Below, piece after piece: positions 5,993-15,940 of a stretch of DNA of 64,000 nt. A program made the position numbers and the translations under genes. Source of the stretch: Hydrogenimonas cancrithermarum (GTDB taxonomy: Bacteria > Campylobacterota > Campylobacteria > Campylobacterales > Hydrogenimonadaceae); the NCBI RefSeq assembly GCF_030296055.1, contig NZ_AP027370.1, positions 2,034,501 through 2,098,500 on the forward strand. Reading direction: 5' to 3'. The stretch's first letter is position 1, and every line of letters begins with the position of its first letter. The notes beneath the pieces are model-generated. The model worked only from the letters and a program-made list of their open reading frames with translations, was not told the origin of the DNA and did not search any database.

Positions 5993-8900
5993 TTATATTT
6001 TTCCTATTTCGGAAACCTTCAGTGCACGGTCATAGAGGCGAATTTCATCTAAAGTCCCGTTAAAATATCCCCCCATCTCTTCGCTTTCCGGAAGCGGTGC
6101 CGCTCCGATGTAGAGCGGTGTTTTCGATCGGATGAACTCGCTTCGAATTTCGCTTCTTCCAACGGCTTTGCCGTCGACATAGAGAGTGAAGTACTCACCG
6201 TCGTAAGTGATGGCCACATGGATCCACTCTTTCGTTTCCGGAAGTTCGTAACGGAGTTCTATCGGCTCTTCGTCCTCTTCGAGATAGACGAAGGCCACGA
6301 TTTCGCCCTCGACGATTTTGACGCCGTAGGGCCCCCACTCGCCTCGGGTCACCAACTGCCGTACACTCTCACCAGGTTCGCCGGGAAGGAAGTGGAAGGA
6401 GAGGGTCAGGGCTTTCGGATCGAGTTCTGTGTCGTAAGGGACCTCCAGATAACCGCTCTCTCCATCGAAGAGAAGGGCTTGACCACGGTACCCCTCTTCA
6501 CACGTCACTTTGCCGTGGATACTTGCAGGGTGTTTCCCCGACGCATCTCTCCCCTTGCAGTCGTCGAAGTTCCACCATCCTACCAGGGAGGCGGGAGGAG
6601 CGACTTCGATATGTATCCGCTTCCAGCCGCCCCCGTTGGATTCACGCATGACGACGGCTTCGTAGCTGCCCGGATTTTCGTAGGTATGGGTGGCGTCGTG
6701 CCCCTGTGCAGAATCGAATTGGCCGTCTCCTTCGAAATCCCACAGATAGATTCCCACATCGGACGGTTCGGCATGGAACCTGACGGTCAGAGGCGCCTCT
6801 CCCTTTTCCGGTGTTGCACTCACGCTCTCGAGCGGTTCGAAAGGCTCTTCGAACGCTTCGTCGATGTCGTGCATCGCAGTCTCGACCTCTTCGGGTCGAA
6901 GAGCGTAGGTGTAGAGTTTCACTTCGTCGATGTATCCTTTGTACAAGGAGGAGTCGTTCGTTCCGTCGAAACCGAGGTAGATGGGACCTTCCATCTCTCT
7001 AAGTTTCTCCGGTGCCGACATTTTCGCCGCCACCTCACCGTTTTGGTAGAGGGTGATCGTTCCATTCTCGTAGGTGATGGCGAGATGGGTCCAGATATTT
7101 TTCGGAAGGGCGACCCCTTCGGCATAAAGAGTCAATTCTCCCTCTTCGGACGTGACGTACCAACGTGGTTTACCATCCACGATTTTCAATCCGAAGGGTA
7201 TCGCAGAAGCGTCTTCACCCTTTTTAAAAATTCGCGTCGTAAACCAGAGGATCGCGTGTTCTCCTTCGAGCTCCGAAGGTTCGATCCAGAGAGAAACCGT
7301 GAATGGCCCGTTCGAAGTGAATCCCCCGATGGCCGGGAGTTCGATGTAGTCTTCGTCCCCATGAAGGTAGAGTGCCTTGTCTTTCGGTGCCTCCTCGATG
7401 CAGAGGGGGTTTCCATCGATCTCTCCGTCGCGATTTTCGCCCGAACGATCTTTCGCATCGCATTCCGAAAAGTTCCAATAGCCTGTCAGTTTCGCATGGC
7501 GTACAATATCGAACCGTACCGGTTCGCTCTTCATAGATTCGTGGTCGCTGTCGAAACGCTGTTGAAACGAGATATAGAAGGTATCGTGTCCGGCAGGCGG
7601 CGTGAAGCGGATGGTATCGTTCGCATCGAGCTCTCCTTTTTGGACGACCGACGTACATTCGCCGTCGAAACAGATCTTGTACTCTACCATTCCCCTCTCT
7701 CCACGGCAACCTTTCCAGAGATTTTCGAAAGAGACGGGTATGTTCACGCTGCCGTCCTCAGCCTTCTCGTAGGATGAGGCGAGTGACGGTTCGGGGGTAT
7801 AGGATGCGAACCGGTCCGCTTTCCAGAAGCTGAAACAGCGCGTTTCGCTCCAGGGGCCTGGTGCCACAGTATAGGAGAAACGGGCGTGCCAGTACCAGTC
7901 TCCTTCACCCACTTCCGGCGAATAGTGGAAGATCCCCTTGGCATCCATTGCCTCATCTTTGGCGTTCCATGCGCTGATGCTGCGGTCTACGGTGAAGTTC
8001 TCATCTCTCGCCCATTCGTACTGTATGGCACGAATGGCGGAAGTGTTTACATCCTCTTGCGGCATCACCAACAGTTCGAGGGGCGAAGAGATCGCATCGT
8101 CGAAGAGGATGGCGCCGTCTTCGGGAGCGATAGGGATGCCCGAAGGCGGTGGGATGACCTTGAAGATGTGATCGTCGTTTTCGTCACCGAACTGGAGAGT
8201 CTCACCATATCTGGAAACCGCTTGAACGCTGAAGTTGTAAGTTCCCGATTCTACGGGGGTGAAGTACCAGATGGCTCTCCCATCTTCCGAGACATTGGCA
8301 TCCAAGACGGTCGTGGTGCCGTTGTGCGAGATGGCGAGGCGGGCGAAGGCGATGGGGTCGCCGTCCGGGTCCACTAAATTCGCCGCGGTGAAGACGAGCT
8401 CCTGCCCCTCGATGATCGTCTGAGTCGGGGAGGGTCCCGCTATATCCTCGTCCCTCGGCATTCGGGGAACGCAGTTGACGACGGTGAAAACCCCCGCCTC
8501 TTCCTGATGTTCCGCATACCAGTCGCGTTCGAGGCCGGCACCGTAGATATCCTTTCCGAGGGGCTCCACATAAGAGGTGCCGTACCCGGCTTGCGAAGCA
8601 TCGTACTCCGCCTCCATCCAAAGCGATGGAGATGGGTTTTCGACGGTAACGTTGCGTTCGATGGAAAGCGAAGGATATTTGGAGAGGAGAAAGGTCGCCC
8701 CGGAAATCGCGTCTGAGTCGGGGTCTTCGAAATGGAAGCGGATCTTGATCCGTTCGTCGATGCAGATATGGATGTTTTCGCCCAACGTTTTCATGTTTTT
8801 TCCGTTGAGATAGTATTCGTGATCGTCCGGAACCGGCGGTCGGTTTTCCACGACGAAGGATCGGGGGGCGCTCCAGTCGCTCCAGACACCGTTGCATTTT

Positions 8901-11900
8901 GCACGGGCTCTCCACCAGTAGCTACGGCTGTAGGGTTCGCTGTCGAGCGTCGGAAGTGTCGTATTCCATTCTCCTTCCGCCAATGGTCCGGATGACGTCA
9001 CGTCGGAGCTGAAGTCGCTTTTCGGTGCATATTCTATCACGTAACTGTCAGGGAGTGCGTCCGCTGTCACATTGGGCGTGGTGATACGGAAGGATACGAT
9101 ACTGTGATGTGAAAATCGGACACCATCGGCAGGGGTGGTGAGCGTGGGAGTGTCGGGGACGAGTTTTAGATGTACGATGCCACTGGAGACACGATGGATC
9201 GTTCCGTTGGCGTCTTCGAGCGAATAGATGATCCGGATGTAGAAATTTCCGCATTGATAGTCGTTCCAATATGCGGTATCTTCATCCAAGCTGTAGAGCG
9301 TCTGACTGAAGATCGTCTCTTCTTCATCGAAGTCCGGAGCGGTGGCGATCTGCACTTCCGCACCTTCGATGTATTCGATGTTTCCGGCGATTTCAAAAGC
9401 GTATCCCTCGGCGAGCGATGTGTAACGAACGCTCGCATCGTCTCCTTCCACTTCACGAAGTACAGGATCGCCTGCCGTTTTCACCCAGTACGAGATATAG
9501 ACGGGGAGCTCGAGGTGGTAATAGAAGGAGACGGTGTTGCTCCAGCCGCTTTCCGCCACACCATCGGTCGCTTTCGCCCGCAGATAGTATCGGTGTCCCC
9601 AGGATAGGTTGTCGGGCAGATGGAAAGTTGGGGAGGAAATCGTCATCTCGATATAGTTCGTAAATGTCGTATCTTCGGAAATCTGGACGACATAGGTGAC
9701 AGGATCTCCGTCGTCATCGGTTGCTGAGAGAGTGAGTGTGCTGTTTTCGTCCAGATCGAGAATATCCGTGGCAGGTAGGGAGAAGGTAGGTTTAGAGGGT
9801 GCTTCGTTCAATCGTTCGATGGTCAATGTATCGATTCCGTAGGTACCGCCGCTGCCGGCGATACAGGCGATATGAAGTTCACCGGTGATGGCGGGACGAA
9901 GTTGTAAAGTATTGTTTGCCATGGCGATTACGGTCGCGATGGTGTTTCCGTCGTAGAGGAGGGCGTCCGTTCCTTCCACTTTTTCGCCTTCGATATACCA
10001 CGATACATCAGGCGAGACACCATCGGCAGTGGTGACATCGCACGTGAGGGTCGAACTCTCTCCACTTTCGAGGGAACTTTTGTCCGCACTCATCTTCACG
10101 ATGACGTCGGGTTTGAGGTTCACGTTCTGGGTCGCGATACTTTCGGCGCCCGAATCGTTCAGGAAAGGATCGCTCGCCACGGTCCACACTCCGTAGATGA
10201 AGTCGGCCTGGAAAGCTCCTCCGTAACTGAGTTTGACCCCTTCGTCGAAAGAGACTTCGATGGATGCAGTGAAGGGGTAGCTGAGCGTGACTTCGGGATA
10301 GATGCCCGCATGGTCGAGATAGGGGACCGTGGTATCGTTTCCTGCGATGTTCTGAATGATATTGAAAAGGGCTTCGCCGTTGATGGAGAGGGCGGGTTTC
10401 CACTCCATCGTCTCTTCGATCGAAACCGCCTCTTCACCCTCCGCATTCTCTCCGATTTCGAGGCCGAAAGAGAGGCTCATACGCTTGGCCATCTCTCTGT
10501 AGAGGTTTATGAGGTTCGAATTGTCGGTATCGCGCATCTTCTCTATGAGCTGAACGAAAGTGTCTTTGAAGATCAAAGCCGCCTGCTGCATCGGGTTTTG
10601 GTGCAGTAACGCGGCGGCGGGATCACCGCTTTGTGCACTCTCCTCCACCGCTTTTTGCAGCGTTTTGCCCACGCGCTTCATCGGTGAGAGGAAAAAGGTG
10701 TCGATATCGTAGGTGTCGAGAACGACGGCGACGGAGTCTGCGAAGAGCCCCAGATCCCAACTCAATCCCGCTTCGACGCCTATTTTGAGGTTAGCGTTGG
10801 CGCCGCCGGTTCCTGTGCCGCCCGCACCGACTCCTACGCCGATTTCCGGTTCGAACGAGATGCCAAAGGAGATGCTTTGCGCGATTTCGCTGAGGTTGCT
10901 TTCGTCGAGAGCCTCTTTGATCCCCGCGGCATAATTTTTGAGGAAATCGATGAAGAGTTTGTCGTCGGCAAATTGCATGATGCCCGCTTGCACCCCTTCA
11001 TCGAAAGCTTCCGTGACCAGCCCCATGTTCTCTTTGGTGGCGTTGAACTCCTCGAGGACGATGTTTTTGAGAAGCTCCAGCGTGCCTGACTGGAGATTCA
11101 GCGGGTCGATGCCCACGGAGAAGCTAAGCGCCGCTCCGGCCTTGCCGCCCAGTAGAACATGGTAGTTGAACTCCACCCCTATCCCAGCAGACGCCGAAAC
11201 GGAGATATCGGGATGGGTTGTGGCCGAGATGTCCAACAGGTTTCCACGGAAAGGTATCTTCAGATCGGCCGTGATTTCCGGGAAAGCGGGGCAGCTTTGC
11301 TGCAGATGGTTATAGAGTGCCGTGAGAGAGTCCTCTCCCTCCATCGGGGGTACGACTGGGGAGAAGGGGTCGAAGGTCATTCGCAGACGACCATCGCTGC
11401 CGGGGAGAGGAGTCACGAGGAACGTGCTTTTCAGGCTTTCTGAAGAGAGGAGTGTGTCGAAACAGAGGGTCGAGGTACTCTCGGCGTCGCACGGCGAGTC
11501 GGAGGTGCTGTTCTCTTTGGCGTAGAAGCGTATCTTCTTTTCCGATGCCTTGTAATCGAGTGCGGTGGCGTAATCGGGAAAACTTTGCACGAGCAGATTG
11601 AGTTTGTCGTAGAGCCAGACGATCGGAAAATCACTCCCGACTTTCTCGTTGAATGCATCCAGATAGCTTTTGCAGTAGCTGATCGTATCGAATGAGACAT
11701 TTTGGACGGTGGAACCTTTTTTGAGACTCAGGTAGGCCGTTCCATCGGAAATCCAGAGTTTGATCCGGGCGTCTTTGGAGGGGTCGGGCGCGATTTCGGA
11801 GATCATGGTGTCGATATTCCCACGGTAGCTCTTGAAGAGGTCGACGACATCTTCGAGGCTCTTTTTCTTCTCTTGTAGCCGGGAGAAAGCGTAGTCGAAA

Positions 11901-13672
11901 AACGCCTTGACGTTTGTATCCCCTTTGGAGAGGAAATTGCGAAGGTCGTGCATAAGCCGGTCAGGGTCGGTGGCCGTCGCGACGATGTTGCCCGCATTTT
12001 CATAGACCGATTTGAGAGAGTTGTACCGGTTCTTTATCTGAGACGCGATGGCGCTGTAGTCGTCGAGGTTCTCCACTGGATTGAGGCTTTTTACCTTTTT
12101 GACGAGACTTTTGAAAGTTTTGAGCAGGTCGAGAATATCATCACCCACCAATGAAACGAGCGTTTCGATGGCCTGTTCCAGTGCGCTCATTCCTGTATCG
12201 GCCACCTCCTCTCCCGTTTCAATGATTTTGCTGACATACCCGTTAAATGTTCTCCATACCCCTCTTGTCGAAACCATTCCATAAGATCTTCCACTCGCTT
12301 TCTCTTCCTCAAAAACCGGTACTTCCAGCAGCAGTCGTCTCTTTTCGTCCAGATGCAGAATGGGAAGCACCTCCCGAATCTCCCGGGGGAGAGCCTCGGA
12401 GAGGCTCTCAAGTGTTTTGCTTCCGATGGGAACGGAGAGAGTGTAAAGAAGCGGTGTAGGAGTCCCCTCGAGCCGATGAAGAGAGATACTCTGTTTCTCG
12501 TCGCGGTGGGAGATGGCGGTTCTTCCCCTGTCCAGGGCGATATGCAGGAGATAGCCATCCGATGATGGGTTTTCGCTGTAGGAAAGAATGGCGGGTGCGC
12601 CGCCGATGAGAACGATGCCAAGGAAACGGTCGCTTTCAAACAGCTTGTCGAGATAGTTCTCTTTCCATTTCGCGATGGCGTTGGGGCGCATCAGTACGGC
12701 ATGCAGGAGTTTGCCGGAGAAGTTACGCAAAGAAGAGGTCCTCCGTGTTTTCGTTTCGTAGGAGGCTTCGACCGTTTCGATGACGTTTTCGGACTCCTCT
12801 TCGAGCGTTTCGCGTAACGTATCGTCGGGAATCGATTCGATGTCAGTTTTCGCCACTGCCGAAAGAGTGGAACGATTTCGCAATTTCTCTTCGATATCCG
12901 GCAAAACGGTGATCCCATGACGTACGGTTACACTTCTTCCATAAGGGTCTTCCACTTCGGTGACGACGACGTAGTGCCCCTCTTCGGGGTATTCGAACGA
13001 AACTTCCGGATTTTTTTCTTCGGTTTCACCTGAATGTTCCGCTTCGTCGGCGCTCCAGTGGATTTCTTCGGGTGAAAAGAGCGACTTTAAGGTGAAAGTC
13101 GGCGACTCCCCCTTTTTAATGAAGTCGGGCCCTTCGATCGAAGCGAGAGGCACCCCCGTTTGTGTCGTGATTTTGAAGACGACGTCTTTGCCGAGCATCT
13201 TTCCGTCTTTCGATGTGGTCGCCATGGATACGAGAGCTTTGTATTCCGCTCCCTCTTCGAGAAAATCTTTTGGAACGAAAATAAGCTCCATACTGTCGCT
13301 GGAGAGATAGAGCCGGCCTTCCACCTCTTTGCCATCGCGGTAGAGCCGCAGCCAATCGCTGGTGAGAGGCGTGTAATCGTTTGGTCCGGTTACCGTTTTC
13401 TCCCCGTAAAGAGCGAGCGATCCGTTTTCATCCTGTTTCAACGGTCTGGTGAAACCGATTCGAATCACCTGAGAAGGAGCGATACTCCGATATCTCGATT
13501 CCAGATCGGCTTTCGTTGCGGCGAGGTCAAATTTTTCCCTGTTTACTACGCTGCTACCGCCTTTCACCTCATGGCGGTCGAATTCGCATCCGCCCATCCA
13601 GCCTATCATCAGAATGGATAGGAAGAGCATGAGAATTGTCGATCCATAGTTTTCTATCACTCTCTTCATCAC
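5993..13672 (-). CDS. Giant surface lipoprotein-like protein with PKD, Fn3-like and two LamG domains
   Basis: 2559 residues, the largest gene here. It starts with a hydrophobic signal ending in a possible lipobox with Cys at 29, so it is probably lipidated and carried to the outer membrane or surface. A PKD/Ig-like domain sits at about 180-260. Residues about 280-1170 match no family I recognise; they are rich in Ser/Asp/Lys and include Gly-rich beta-looking segments near 830-980. From about 1180 to 2050 there is a chain of Ig and fibronectin-type modules, several opening with Pro-x-x-Pro strands. LamG/concanavalin-like domains begin near 2060 and 2361 with a WNF-D/E-C signature and end in LYxGYIDEVKLYTYAL- or IRLYDRAL-type motifs; a PKD domain lies between them at about 2281-2350. 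This architecture is typical of adhesins or polysaccharide-binding proteins. No protease or hydrolase site was seen. It is monocistronic, with a terminator behind it and AT-rich DNA upstream. Confidence 0.85.
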   Translation of the reverse strand: MMKRVIENYGSTILMLFLSILMIGWMGGCEFDRHEVKGGSSVVNREKFDLAATKADLESRYRSIAPSQVIRIGFTRPLKQDENGSLALYGEKTVTGPNDYTPLTSDWLRLYRDGKEVEGRLYLSSDSMELIFVPKDFLEEGAEYKALVSMATTSKDGKMLGKDVVFKITTQTGVPLASIEGPDFIKKGESPTFTLKSLFSPEEIHWSADEAEHSGETEEKNPEVSFEYPEEGHYVVVTEVEDPYGRSVTVRHGITVLPDIEEKLRNRSTLSAVAKTDIESIPDDTLRETLEEESENVIETVEASYETKTRRTSSLRNFSGKLLHAVLMRPNAIAKWKENYLDKLFESDRFLGIVLIGGAPAILSYSENPSSDGYLLHIALDRGRTAISHRDEKQSISLHRLEGTPTPLLYTLSVPIGSKTLESLSEALPREIREVLPILHLDEKRRLLLEVPVFEEEKASGRSYGMVSTRGVWRTFNGYVSKIIETGEEVADTGMSALEQAIETLVSLVGDDILDLLKTFKSLVKKVKSLNPVENLDDYSAIASQIKNRYNSLKSVYENAGNIVATATDPDRLMHDLRNFLSKGDTNVKAFFDYAFSRLQEKKKSLEDVVDLFKSYRGNIDTMISEIAPDPSKDARIKLWISDGTAYLSLKKGSTVQNVSFDTISYCKSYLDAFNEKVGSDFPIVWLYDKLNLLVQSFPDYATALDYKASEKKIRFYAKENSTSDSPCDAESTSTLCFDTLLSSESLKSTFLVTPLPGSDGRLRMTFDPFSPVVPPMEGEDSLTALYNHLQQSCPAFPEITADLKIPFRGNLLDISATTHPDISVSASAGIGVEFNYHVLLGGKAGAALSFSVGIDPLNLQSGTLELLKNIVLEEFNATKENMGLVTEAFDEGVQAGIMQFADDKLFIDFLKNYAAGIKEALDESNLSEIAQSISFGISFEPEIGVGVGAGGTGTGGANANLKIGVEAGLSWDLGLFADSVAVVLDTYDIDTFFLSPMKRVGKTLQKAVEESAQSGDPAAALLHQNPMQQAALIFKDTFVQLIEKMRDTDNSNLINLYREMAKRMSLSFGLEIGENAEGEEAVSIEETMEWKPALSINGEALFNIIQNIAGNDTTVPYLDHAGIYPEVTLSYPFTASIEVSFDEGVKLSYGGAFQADFIYGVWTVASDPFLNDSGAESIATQNVNLKPDVIVKMSADKSSLESGESSTLTCDVTTADGVSPDVSWYIEGEKVEGTDALLYDGNTIATVIAMANNTLQLRPAITGELHIACIAGSGGTYGIDTLTIERLNEAPSKPTFSLPATDILDLDENSTLTLSATDDDGDPVTYVVQISEDTTFTNYIEMTISSPTFHLPDNLSWGHRYYLRAKATDGVAESGWSNTVSFYYHLELPVYISYWVKTAGDPVLREVEGDDASVRYTSLAEGYAFEIAGNIEYIEGAEVQIATAPDFDEEETIFSQTLYSLDEDTAYWNDYQCGNFYIRIIYSLEDANGTIHRVSSGIVHLKLVPDTPTLTTPADGVRFSHHSIVSFRITTPNVTADALPDSYVIEYAPKSDFSSDVTSSGPLAEGEWNTTLPTLDSEPYSRSYWWRARAKCNGVWSDWSAPRSFVVENRPPVPDDHEYYLNGKNMKTLGENIHICIDERIKIRFHFEDPDSDAISGATFLLSKYPSLSIERNVTVENPSPSLWMEAEYDASQAGYGTSYVEPLGKDIYGAGLERDWYAEHQEEAGVFTVVNCVPRMPRDEDIAGPSPTQTIIEGQELVFTAANLVDPDGDPIAFARLAISHNGTTTVLDANVSEDGRAIWYFTPVESGTYNFSVQAVSRYGETLQFGDENDDHIFKVIPPPSGIPIAPEDGAILFDDAISSPLELLVMPQEDVNTSAIRAIQYEWARDENFTVDRSISAWNAKDEAMDAKGIFHYSPEVGEGDWYWHARFSYTVAPGPWSETRCFSFWKADRFASYTPEPSLASSYEKAEDGSVNIPVSFENLWKGCRGERGMVEYKICFDGECTSVVQKGELDANDTIRFTPPAGHDTFYISFQQRFDSDHESMKSEPVRFDIVRHAKLTGYWNFSECDAKDRSGENRDGEIDGNPLCIEEAPKDKALYLHGDEDYIELPAIGGFTSNGPFTVSLWIEPSELEGEHAILWFTTRIFKKGEDASAIPFGLKIVDGKPRWYVTSEEGELTLYAEGVALPKNIWTHLAITYENGTITLYQNGEVAAKMSAPEKLREMEGPIYLGFDGTNDSSLYKGYIDEVKLYTYALRPEEVETAMHDIDEAFEEPFEPLESVSATPEKGEAPLTVRFHAEPSDVGIYLWDFEGDGQFDSAQGHDATHTYENPGSYEAVVMRESNGGGWKRIHIEVAPPASLVGWWNFDDCKGRDASGKHPASIHGKVTCEEGYRGQALLFDGESGYLEVPYDTELDPKALTLSFHFLPGEPGESVRQLVTRGEWGPYGVKIVEGEIVAFVYLEEDEEPIELRYELPETKEWIHVAITYDGEYFTLYVDGKAVGRSEIRSEFIRSKTPLYIGAAPLPESEEMGGYFNGTLDEIRLYDRALKVSEIGKI

Positions 13673-13991: not shown

Positions 13992-14082
13992 TGGCGGACA
14001 GGGAGGGATTCGAACCCTCGGTACCCGCAAAGGTACGCACCCTTAGCAGGGGTGTGGTTTCAGCCAGCTCACCCACCTGTCC
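13992..14082 (-). tRNA. tRNA-Ser(GCU)
   Basis: The minus strand folds into a class II tRNA of 91 bases: acceptor stem GGACAGG pairing with CCTGTCC, an anticodon loop CTGCTAA with anticodon GCT (reads AGC/AGU serine codons), a long variable arm (GTACC..GGTAC), a T-loop GGTTCGAATCC and an encoded CCA end. The long variable arm fits serine. Confidence 0.96.
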
Positions 14083-15256: not shown

Positions 15257-15940
15257 TCAATCAAGGGAACGGAGGATGTAATGGAGCGTGTGCACAGCGT
15301 TGCCGACCGGAATTTTCAGCGTGAATTCTCGACACCCATTTCCCGGCTTTTTGGGGAATTCGACGACGAGATAACCCACTGTCGTCTTATGCGCTCCGAG
15401 AAGGTTTTTGTTCGGCATTTTGTAATAGGTCAGATCGTTTCTGATTTTTTGGTAGATAACGGTGAGCTCCCGTTCGGTATCGAGAATCGTTCCGTTACTC
15501 TCTTTGTAGTGTTTCGAAAGAAATCTGTGTAAAATTTCATCGTTCTCTTTGAAATTGATCATCGGCTTTGCACAGTCTGGACGTTTGAAATAATCGGGCA
15601 TCATTTCGAGCGGCATCAGCTTGATCTGTTGTCCCGGATTCTCGAGGCGAATTTGATTCCATTTTATTGTAATGGGCTTTTGCGTAAGGTTTTCGACGGC
15701 GATGGCTAGAACACCCTCTCTTCGGCATGCTATGGGATTGTTGATGACGATTGAGGAGACGATGGAGTTCTCTTTTTTCGAAGAATAGATATAGATGCCA
15801 TCATGGTAGCGGAGCGTTTGTCCATTGGTTGGTGACGGGATAATGAAGGAGAAAACGACTTGCTTTTTCTCCTCTTTTTTCTCGTTGCATCCTGTAAAAA
15901 ACAGTATTGCAATAAAAAGACCCGTCACCAATTTTTTCAC
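15257..15940 (-). CDS. Predicted lipoprotein, unknown function
   Basis: 227 residues. It begins with GTG; the ribosome site AGGAT lies within the last codons of acs, only 4 bases separate the genes, and an out-of-frame ATG right beside it stops immediately. The N-terminus is a lipoprotein signal (lysines, hydrophobic run, then FFTGC with Cys at about 18), followed by a Lys/Glu-rich linker. The rest is mostly beta-strand-like with a few Cys and no catalytic motif I recognise. It probably sits in the periplasmic leaflet of a membrane. Confidence 0.75.
   Translation of the reverse strand: MKKLVTGLFIAILFFTGCNEKKEEKKQVVFSFIIPSPTNGQTLRYHDGIYIYSSKKENSIVSSIVINNPIACRREGVLAIAVENLTQKPITIKWNQIRLENPGQQIKLMPLEMMPDYFKRPDCAKPMINFKENDEILHRFLSKHYKESNGTILDTERELTVIYQKIRNDLTYYKMPNKNLLGAHKTTVGYLVVEFPKKPGNGCREFTLKIPVGNAVHTLHYILRSLD

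Follow-up and report, generated by a model that had tools for sequence, protein, structure and literature searches.

Very large proteins built from chains of LamG, PKD and Ig domains are typically exposed proteins, LamG domains occur also in enzymes and other exported proteins, and accessory surface proteins commonly sit at tRNA sites with varying content. Described systems close to the locus analysed here include the LapA-type RTX adhesins, which we take to be large and modular, and a class of pilus-associated LamG proteins of the MSHA type, presumably encoded with pilin-like genes nearby. Literature searches, with most subscription journals outside their scope, returned nothing on LamG in Campylobacterota or Hydrogenimonas or in lipoproteins of Epsilonproteobacteria, and nothing that joined a LamG domain with lipoprotein, PKD domain and adhesin, or with a bacterial surface adhesin. 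Here we describe a gene of Hydrogenimonas cancrithermarum, located in a window of 64,000 nucleotides (the whole stretch of DNA analysed, from contig NZ_AP027370.1). We propose, with what we judge to be an even chance of being right, that it encodes a species-specific, lipid-anchored, modular cell-surface adhesin, of which we infer the surface exposure, the export route and the ligand.

Gene, product and export signals

The gene is a single uninterrupted reading frame on the minus strand (5993-13672 of the window), 2559 codons long when counted from a GTG. It is a real gene, since 7.7 kb without a stop and neighbour-like codon usage exclude a chance frame: codon usage correlates with that of eight neighbouring genes at 0.92 for the N half and 0.94 for the C half, compared with 0.76 when the frame is shifted and 0.78 on the antisense strand. 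The sequence AGGAG lies 5 bases upstream of an ATG at 13669, which makes a product of 2,558 residues likelier than the 2559 of the initial annotation, whose gene is otherwise upheld. GC content (about 0.50-0.57), like codon usage, resembles that of the neighbours and does not look foreign, which speaks against a very recent foreign origin and lends no support to recent acquisition. A 519-residue plus-strand open reading frame (6218-7777) runs antisense to the C-terminal tail. The features are listed below, with residue positions in GTG numbering unless stated.

5993..13669, minus strand: whole gene, ATG start, 2,558 residues; GTG at 13672 is an alternative start
13586..13669, minus strand: predicted signal peptide and lipobox WMGGC (pattern and hydropathy); Cys to be lipidated is residue 28 (ATG numbering)
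13148..13525, minus strand: N-terminal stretch, residues 50-175, possibly beta-rich and Ig-like (low-confidence model)
12932..13129, minus strand: PKD-like domain, residues 182-247; 20.8 bits, Pfam cut-off 23.5
10118..12907, minus strand: orphan middle, residues 256-1185; no credible relative in our searches
9971..10093, minus strand: Ig-like fragment, residues 1194-1234; Ig_3 20.5 of 30 bits and Big_2 18.3 of 22.8, both below cut-off
9515..9808, minus strand: Fn3-like module, residues 1289-1386; fn3 19.2 of 25 bits, below cut-off
8837..9178, minus strand: Fn3-like module, residues 1499-1612; z = 7.9 to the module at 1289-1386
8207..8428, minus strand: bacterial Ig domain Big_9 (PF17963), residues 1749-1822; 31.2 bits, above the cut-off of 23.6
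6884..7360, minus strand: LamG domain 1 (Laminin_G_3); 97.2 bits, cut-off 27.6
6626..6823, minus strand: PKD domain of the tail, flanked by LamG domains 1 and 2; residues 2284-2349
6005..6466, minus strand: LamG domain 2 (Laminin_G_3); 83.3 bits, cut-off 27.6

An adhesin is suggested by the lipobox, by two LamG domains and a PKD domain above their cut-offs, by Big_9 and the weaker Ig and Fn3 modules, and by the presence of 19 Cys among 2,558 residues together with an acidic stalk and tail. In such a protein, export would proceed by the Sec pathway, and the lipobox Cys would receive a lipid and be retained in the outer membrane. The chain of Ig, Fn3 and PKD modules would be a spacer; at its far end, both LamG domains would bind glycan, whether exopolysaccharide or a mucus-like or host matrix, and would in this way attach cells to particles, to biofilm or to the surface of a host. 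At a guess, the orphan middle might form a folded base near the membrane with a possible role in export or self-association. Against an adhesin stand the roughly 930 residues that lack an explanation, the occurrence of LamG in enzymes and other exported proteins, and the lack of an export system tied to the protein.

The N-terminal sequence SILMIGWMGGC matches what we take to be the general lipoprotein pattern, and the segment that it closes is the sole strongly hydrophobic one in the protein, with 19-residue hydropathy windows above 1.6 starting solely at residues 4-12. Because this segment terminates in the lipobox Cys, the N-terminus has the sequence character of a bacterial lipoprotein, in agreement with the lipoprotein-like signal proposed in the initial annotation. 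Its statement that no autotransporter or type I signal was recognised likewise agrees with the Pfam table of the protein, which holds no autotransporter domain, and with a motif scan that returned 0 matches to RTX GGxGxD repeats; the same kind of scan found no LPXTG motif. At the genome level, a search for the surface-lipoprotein translocator SlipAM gave no match, as did its control (0 of 14 genomes), and three secretin matches were present. The protein could instead be an outer-membrane lipoprotein that faces the periplasm as an envelope scaffold and never reaches the outside, given that the lipobox is the sole targeting feature found and RTX and LPXTG are absent; the missing SlipAM match, with a control that was equally empty, counts for little. 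We consider a periplasmic scaffold unlikely, since LamG/PKD/Ig chains of this size are generally those of exposed proteins, and retain the surface adhesin as the preferred reading.

The LamG-PKD-LamG tail and the stalk

The tail is firmly assigned by profile comparison. Laminin_G_3 (PF13385) reaches 171 bits over two stretches of the whole protein (cut-off 27.6), aligning one LamG domain with the other gives z = 30, and PKD (PF00801) scores 43 bits with the whole protein and 29.2 bits with the tail alone (cut-off 23.5), which places the C-terminal copy above the threshold. The LamG-PKD-LamG order read earlier thus holds for all three domains, and the chain of Ig and Fn3 modules read alongside it holds in part: Big_9 exceeds its cut-off, but Fn3 (PF00041, 19.2 bits against 25) and Ig_3 (20.5 against 30) fall below theirs. 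The Fn3-like modules at 1289-1386 and 1499-1612 resemble each other (0 of 200 shuffles reach the score of their alignment); the first also matches a phage minor tail family (phrog_6977, 5.8e-7), and the piece that holds the second has no Pfam match. Three of the 66 pairs of pieces compared exceed z = 4, one of them being the N-terminal stretch with LamG domain 1 (z = 5.3), whereas the two PKD pieces and a third Fn3 candidate (1833-1945) do not. An N-terminal PKD/Ig domain had also been claimed, and there a PKD-like match exists at 182-247, but at 20.8 bits this copy stays below the Pfam cut-off of 23.5. Residues 50-175 match nothing in Pfam; an AlphaFold2 model of residues 40-264 is mostly strand at a pLDDT of 45, and Foldseek with this model returned nothing at E <= 0.001, its list being led by an S-layer protein with CopC lower down. 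From this model, residues 50-175 may at most be beta-rich. Elsewhere in the genome, a 779-residue frame at C1:1001241-1002026 (L012, L014, L015) has three matches to the PKD domain.

Among PDB sequences, the tail is matched best by a chain named extracellular arabinanase (5hon; residues 2059-2264, E 4.2e-11), which fits sugar binding; an S-layer domain-containing protein (residues 2178-2556, E 1.1e-7) and pappalysin-2 (residues 2481-2553, E 0.002) follow. These three matches add to the case for an adhesin. The arabinanase match would also suit a different role, in which the LamG tail, as a carbohydrate-binding module, supplies the cell with sugar or brings an enzymatic middle into place; so would two scores just below the cut-off of 26.8 (20.2 and 26.6 bits) for 3-keto-disaccharide hydrolase in the LamG region. 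Polysaccharide capture of this kind is quite improbable in our judgement, because no catalytic family was found in the middle and among the 9 neighbours scanned there is no match to a glycoside hydrolase or SusCD-like family; an adhesin with a predicted glycan-binding tail remains the reading we prefer. A match to the TafC fimbrial protein (NF052521) was rejected, at 61.7 bits against a cut-off of 410 and with its best stretch (2052-2265) in the region of LamG domain 1; no literature linking TafC with fimbrial was found, and TafC alone led to a fungal siderophore among the matches listed.

Relatives of the protein were found through this tail. All 17 congeners were searched; 5 match, through the LamG part, and 0 of the 17 match outside the LamG and PKD part, so that there is no conservation to back a function. 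In a set of 60 relatives that includes the genome itself, 11 match at E <= 0.001, and the listed matches other than the gene itself, three further ones in its own genome included, all lie within residues 2042-2558. At E <= 1e-6, residues 1180-2559 match 16 of 72,556 plasmid records, one of which, from Nonomuraea, spans residues 2100-2556. The full protein matches 65 of 50,697 phage records, and the best 20 of the 65 lie within residues 2012-2315, around LamG domain 1. A pattern scan of genomes with the tail alone gave 26 pattern matches, 0 of them confirmed.

The orphan middle and the tRNA-Ser site

The long unassigned middle of the initial annotation is borne out. Residues from about 256 to 1185, some 930 in all, have no convincing match in Pfam, NCBIfam, PHROGs, PDB sequences, plasmids or phages, and profile searches found no catalytic family there. 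Weak matches to Pfam CRC_subunit, DUF6689 and DUF7018, to PHROG tail and unknown families, and to NCBIfam Mce and RalF (E 0.004-0.09) disagree with one another and were rejected. AlphaFold2 without an alignment gave residues 255-1200 a mean pLDDT of 34.9, which is no usable fold; the segment-wise modelling proposed earlier therefore yields, with the piece at 40-264, a beta-rich character at most and no confident fold.

The search for homologues in related genomes, also proposed earlier, separates the two halves: 5 of the 17 congeners match by the LamG part, and the N half has no credible relative in the 397 other genomes of the order. At E <= 0.001, the first 1,180 residues match 3 of 398 genomes of the order (own included), the gene itself among them; the two further matches (L017, L018) were set aside as chance, being short alignments (18 and 17 bits) to unrelated-looking proteins. 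The same three came back from 397 genomes drawn from the phylum, a set that overlaps the one from the order and is not independent of it, and within its own genome the N half matches only itself. At E <= 0.01, none of the 72,556 plasmid records matches the first 1,180 residues; a viral pattern scan gave none, and the single PDB match (E 1.4) is not credible. When one genome from each of 84,980 species was scanned by pattern, an approach that detects close relatives only, 54 pattern matches were found and 0 confirmed; since the wide scan has this reach, distant relatives outside the phylum are only weakly excluded by these sequence searches.

The gene lies past a tRNA gene:

13992..14082, minus strand: tRNA-Ser(GCT), at the edge of a conserved block; 319 bases separate its 3' end from the start of the gene

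The conserved block contains pyrF, present in 17 of the 18 genomes of the genus (own included), and of the 16 other genomes with this gene, we compared its flanks in 12. acs is beside pyrF in 11 of the 12 stretches and a gene for a 227-residue lipoprotein-like product in 10; tRNA-Ser(GCT) follows in 10, and the two stretches without it reach a contig end within 0.5 kb of pyrF. The 227-residue gene, which lies between acs and pyrF (15257-15940 in the window), diverges faster in the genus (about 35-65% identity in 10 stretches) than pyrF does (78-89% in 12). Beyond the tRNA, the 10 congener stretches reach 1.3 to 15.3 kb and contain no match to our gene at E <= 1e-8, and the 319 bases between tRNA and gene have short matches only (14-26 bases, E 0.03 or worse). 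Three of the 10 start alike past the tRNA (L061, L064, L070; pqiAB-like by eye), and their large gene sits elsewhere in our genome (55% identity). In one congener an integrase adjoins the tRNA (Phage_integrase, 77.5 bits), another has a Cas9-like gene (over the threshold for HNH_4, under it for Cas9_a and RuvC_III), and another has an Ig/cadherin/VWA protein within 9.5 kb. The block before tRNA-Ser is largely conserved in the genus, and the varying content downstream suggests an insertion hotspot; the position of our gene where congeners differ points to an accessory adhesin. The window plus 19.9 kb to its left holds no exact second copy (>=15 bases) of the tRNA-Ser 3' end, and a looser search gave 11- to 15-base matches only; since no repeated end was found, an intact island is not shown, and a rearrangement would account for the site equally well.

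To the left of the gene lie GGDEF-EAL, GGDEF and multicopper oxidase genes and then, by eye, metal-efflux genes (L076). The GGDEF-EAL gene begins 100 bases past the end of ours, and no terminator-like site is listed between the two, so that the two genes might be transcribed together. Its orthologues occur in 9 of 17 congeners at 61-69% identity, and five orthologue flanks lack our gene and the oxidase gene (E <= 1e-8) as well as a GGDEF gene above 80 bits. Two GGDEF-EAL matches elsewhere in the genome (C1:1133020-1134261 and 1244037-1245278), about 111 kb apart, have identical score, identity and frame length and are possibly a recent duplication. That the middle is an effector or pore-forming part directed at neighbouring cells, displayed on the stalk and aimed by LamG, would suit its orphan status and a site with varying content next to a tRNA, but is highly improbable, given that no toxin family matches the protein in Pfam, PHROGs or NCBIfam, that no immunity gene was identified, and that the next gene downstream is the GGDEF-EAL gene with these orthologues.

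It is conceivable, though unlikely, that the 930-residue middle represents a new domain family, with a new fold or a new surface route for lipoproteins, carried as exchangeable cargo at the tRNA-Ser site. If exposed, the protein would be a concrete candidate for the means by which this bacterium attaches to particles or partners, and would exemplify an adhesin gene located at a tRNA where the content varies. Its orphan middle offers a case in which to look for export or assembly modules that escape existing profiles; in other respects it would be an ordinary large modular surface protein.

Comparison with described systems

In resemblance to the LapA-type RTX adhesins, our protein is large, modular and adhesin-like and is followed 100 bases downstream, on the same strand, by a GGDEF-EAL gene. 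It differs in having a lipobox instead of RTX repeats, and the GGDEF-EAL gene has genus orthologues without our protein alongside. The arabinanase 5hon shares a LamG-like region with it, matching LamG domain 1 by sequence, but is named as a glycan-degrading enzyme, whereas Pfam found no catalytic family in ours. The Nonomuraea gerenzanensis record of the plasmid collection (NZ_LT559118.1) covers most of the tail at 25.9% identity (E 2e-17) but only 33% of the 1,380-residue query.

Pilin-like (N_methyl) genes are absent from the nine neighbours scanned, which sets our gene apart from what we take to be the MSHA-type class. A 4,036-residue LamG and DUF11 protein of the same genome is likewise very large, but has 20 DUF11 stretches and a single LamG and adjoins two N_methyl pilin-type genes (one match above and one below cut-off). 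It is encoded at L077:2337-14447 (C1, about 1778336-1790446) and is the one other LamG protein of the genome; frames of 4,024-4,079 residues with LamG were seen in three other genomes of the order survey, one a congener. In another contig of the survey (G099:C74:296-2116), the LamG matches contain in-frame TGA codons (8, 13 and 12 of them), which might reflect TGA recoding in the contig or decay.

LamG proteins of the order, including ones in the genus that we take to be MshQ-like, resemble ours in having LamG domains in large, exported-looking proteins. A survey of 199 genomes of the order, with our own among them, gave LamG matches in 51 (48 over the cut-off) and in 26 of 70 genera, so that this kind of protein is ordinary. 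They differ in that the order yielded no credible relative of our first 1,180 residues, and at five loci (two congeners, three other genera) the LamG regions are just 21-26% identical to our tail. Thus, the kind of protein is familiar, and its orphan middle is the unusual part.
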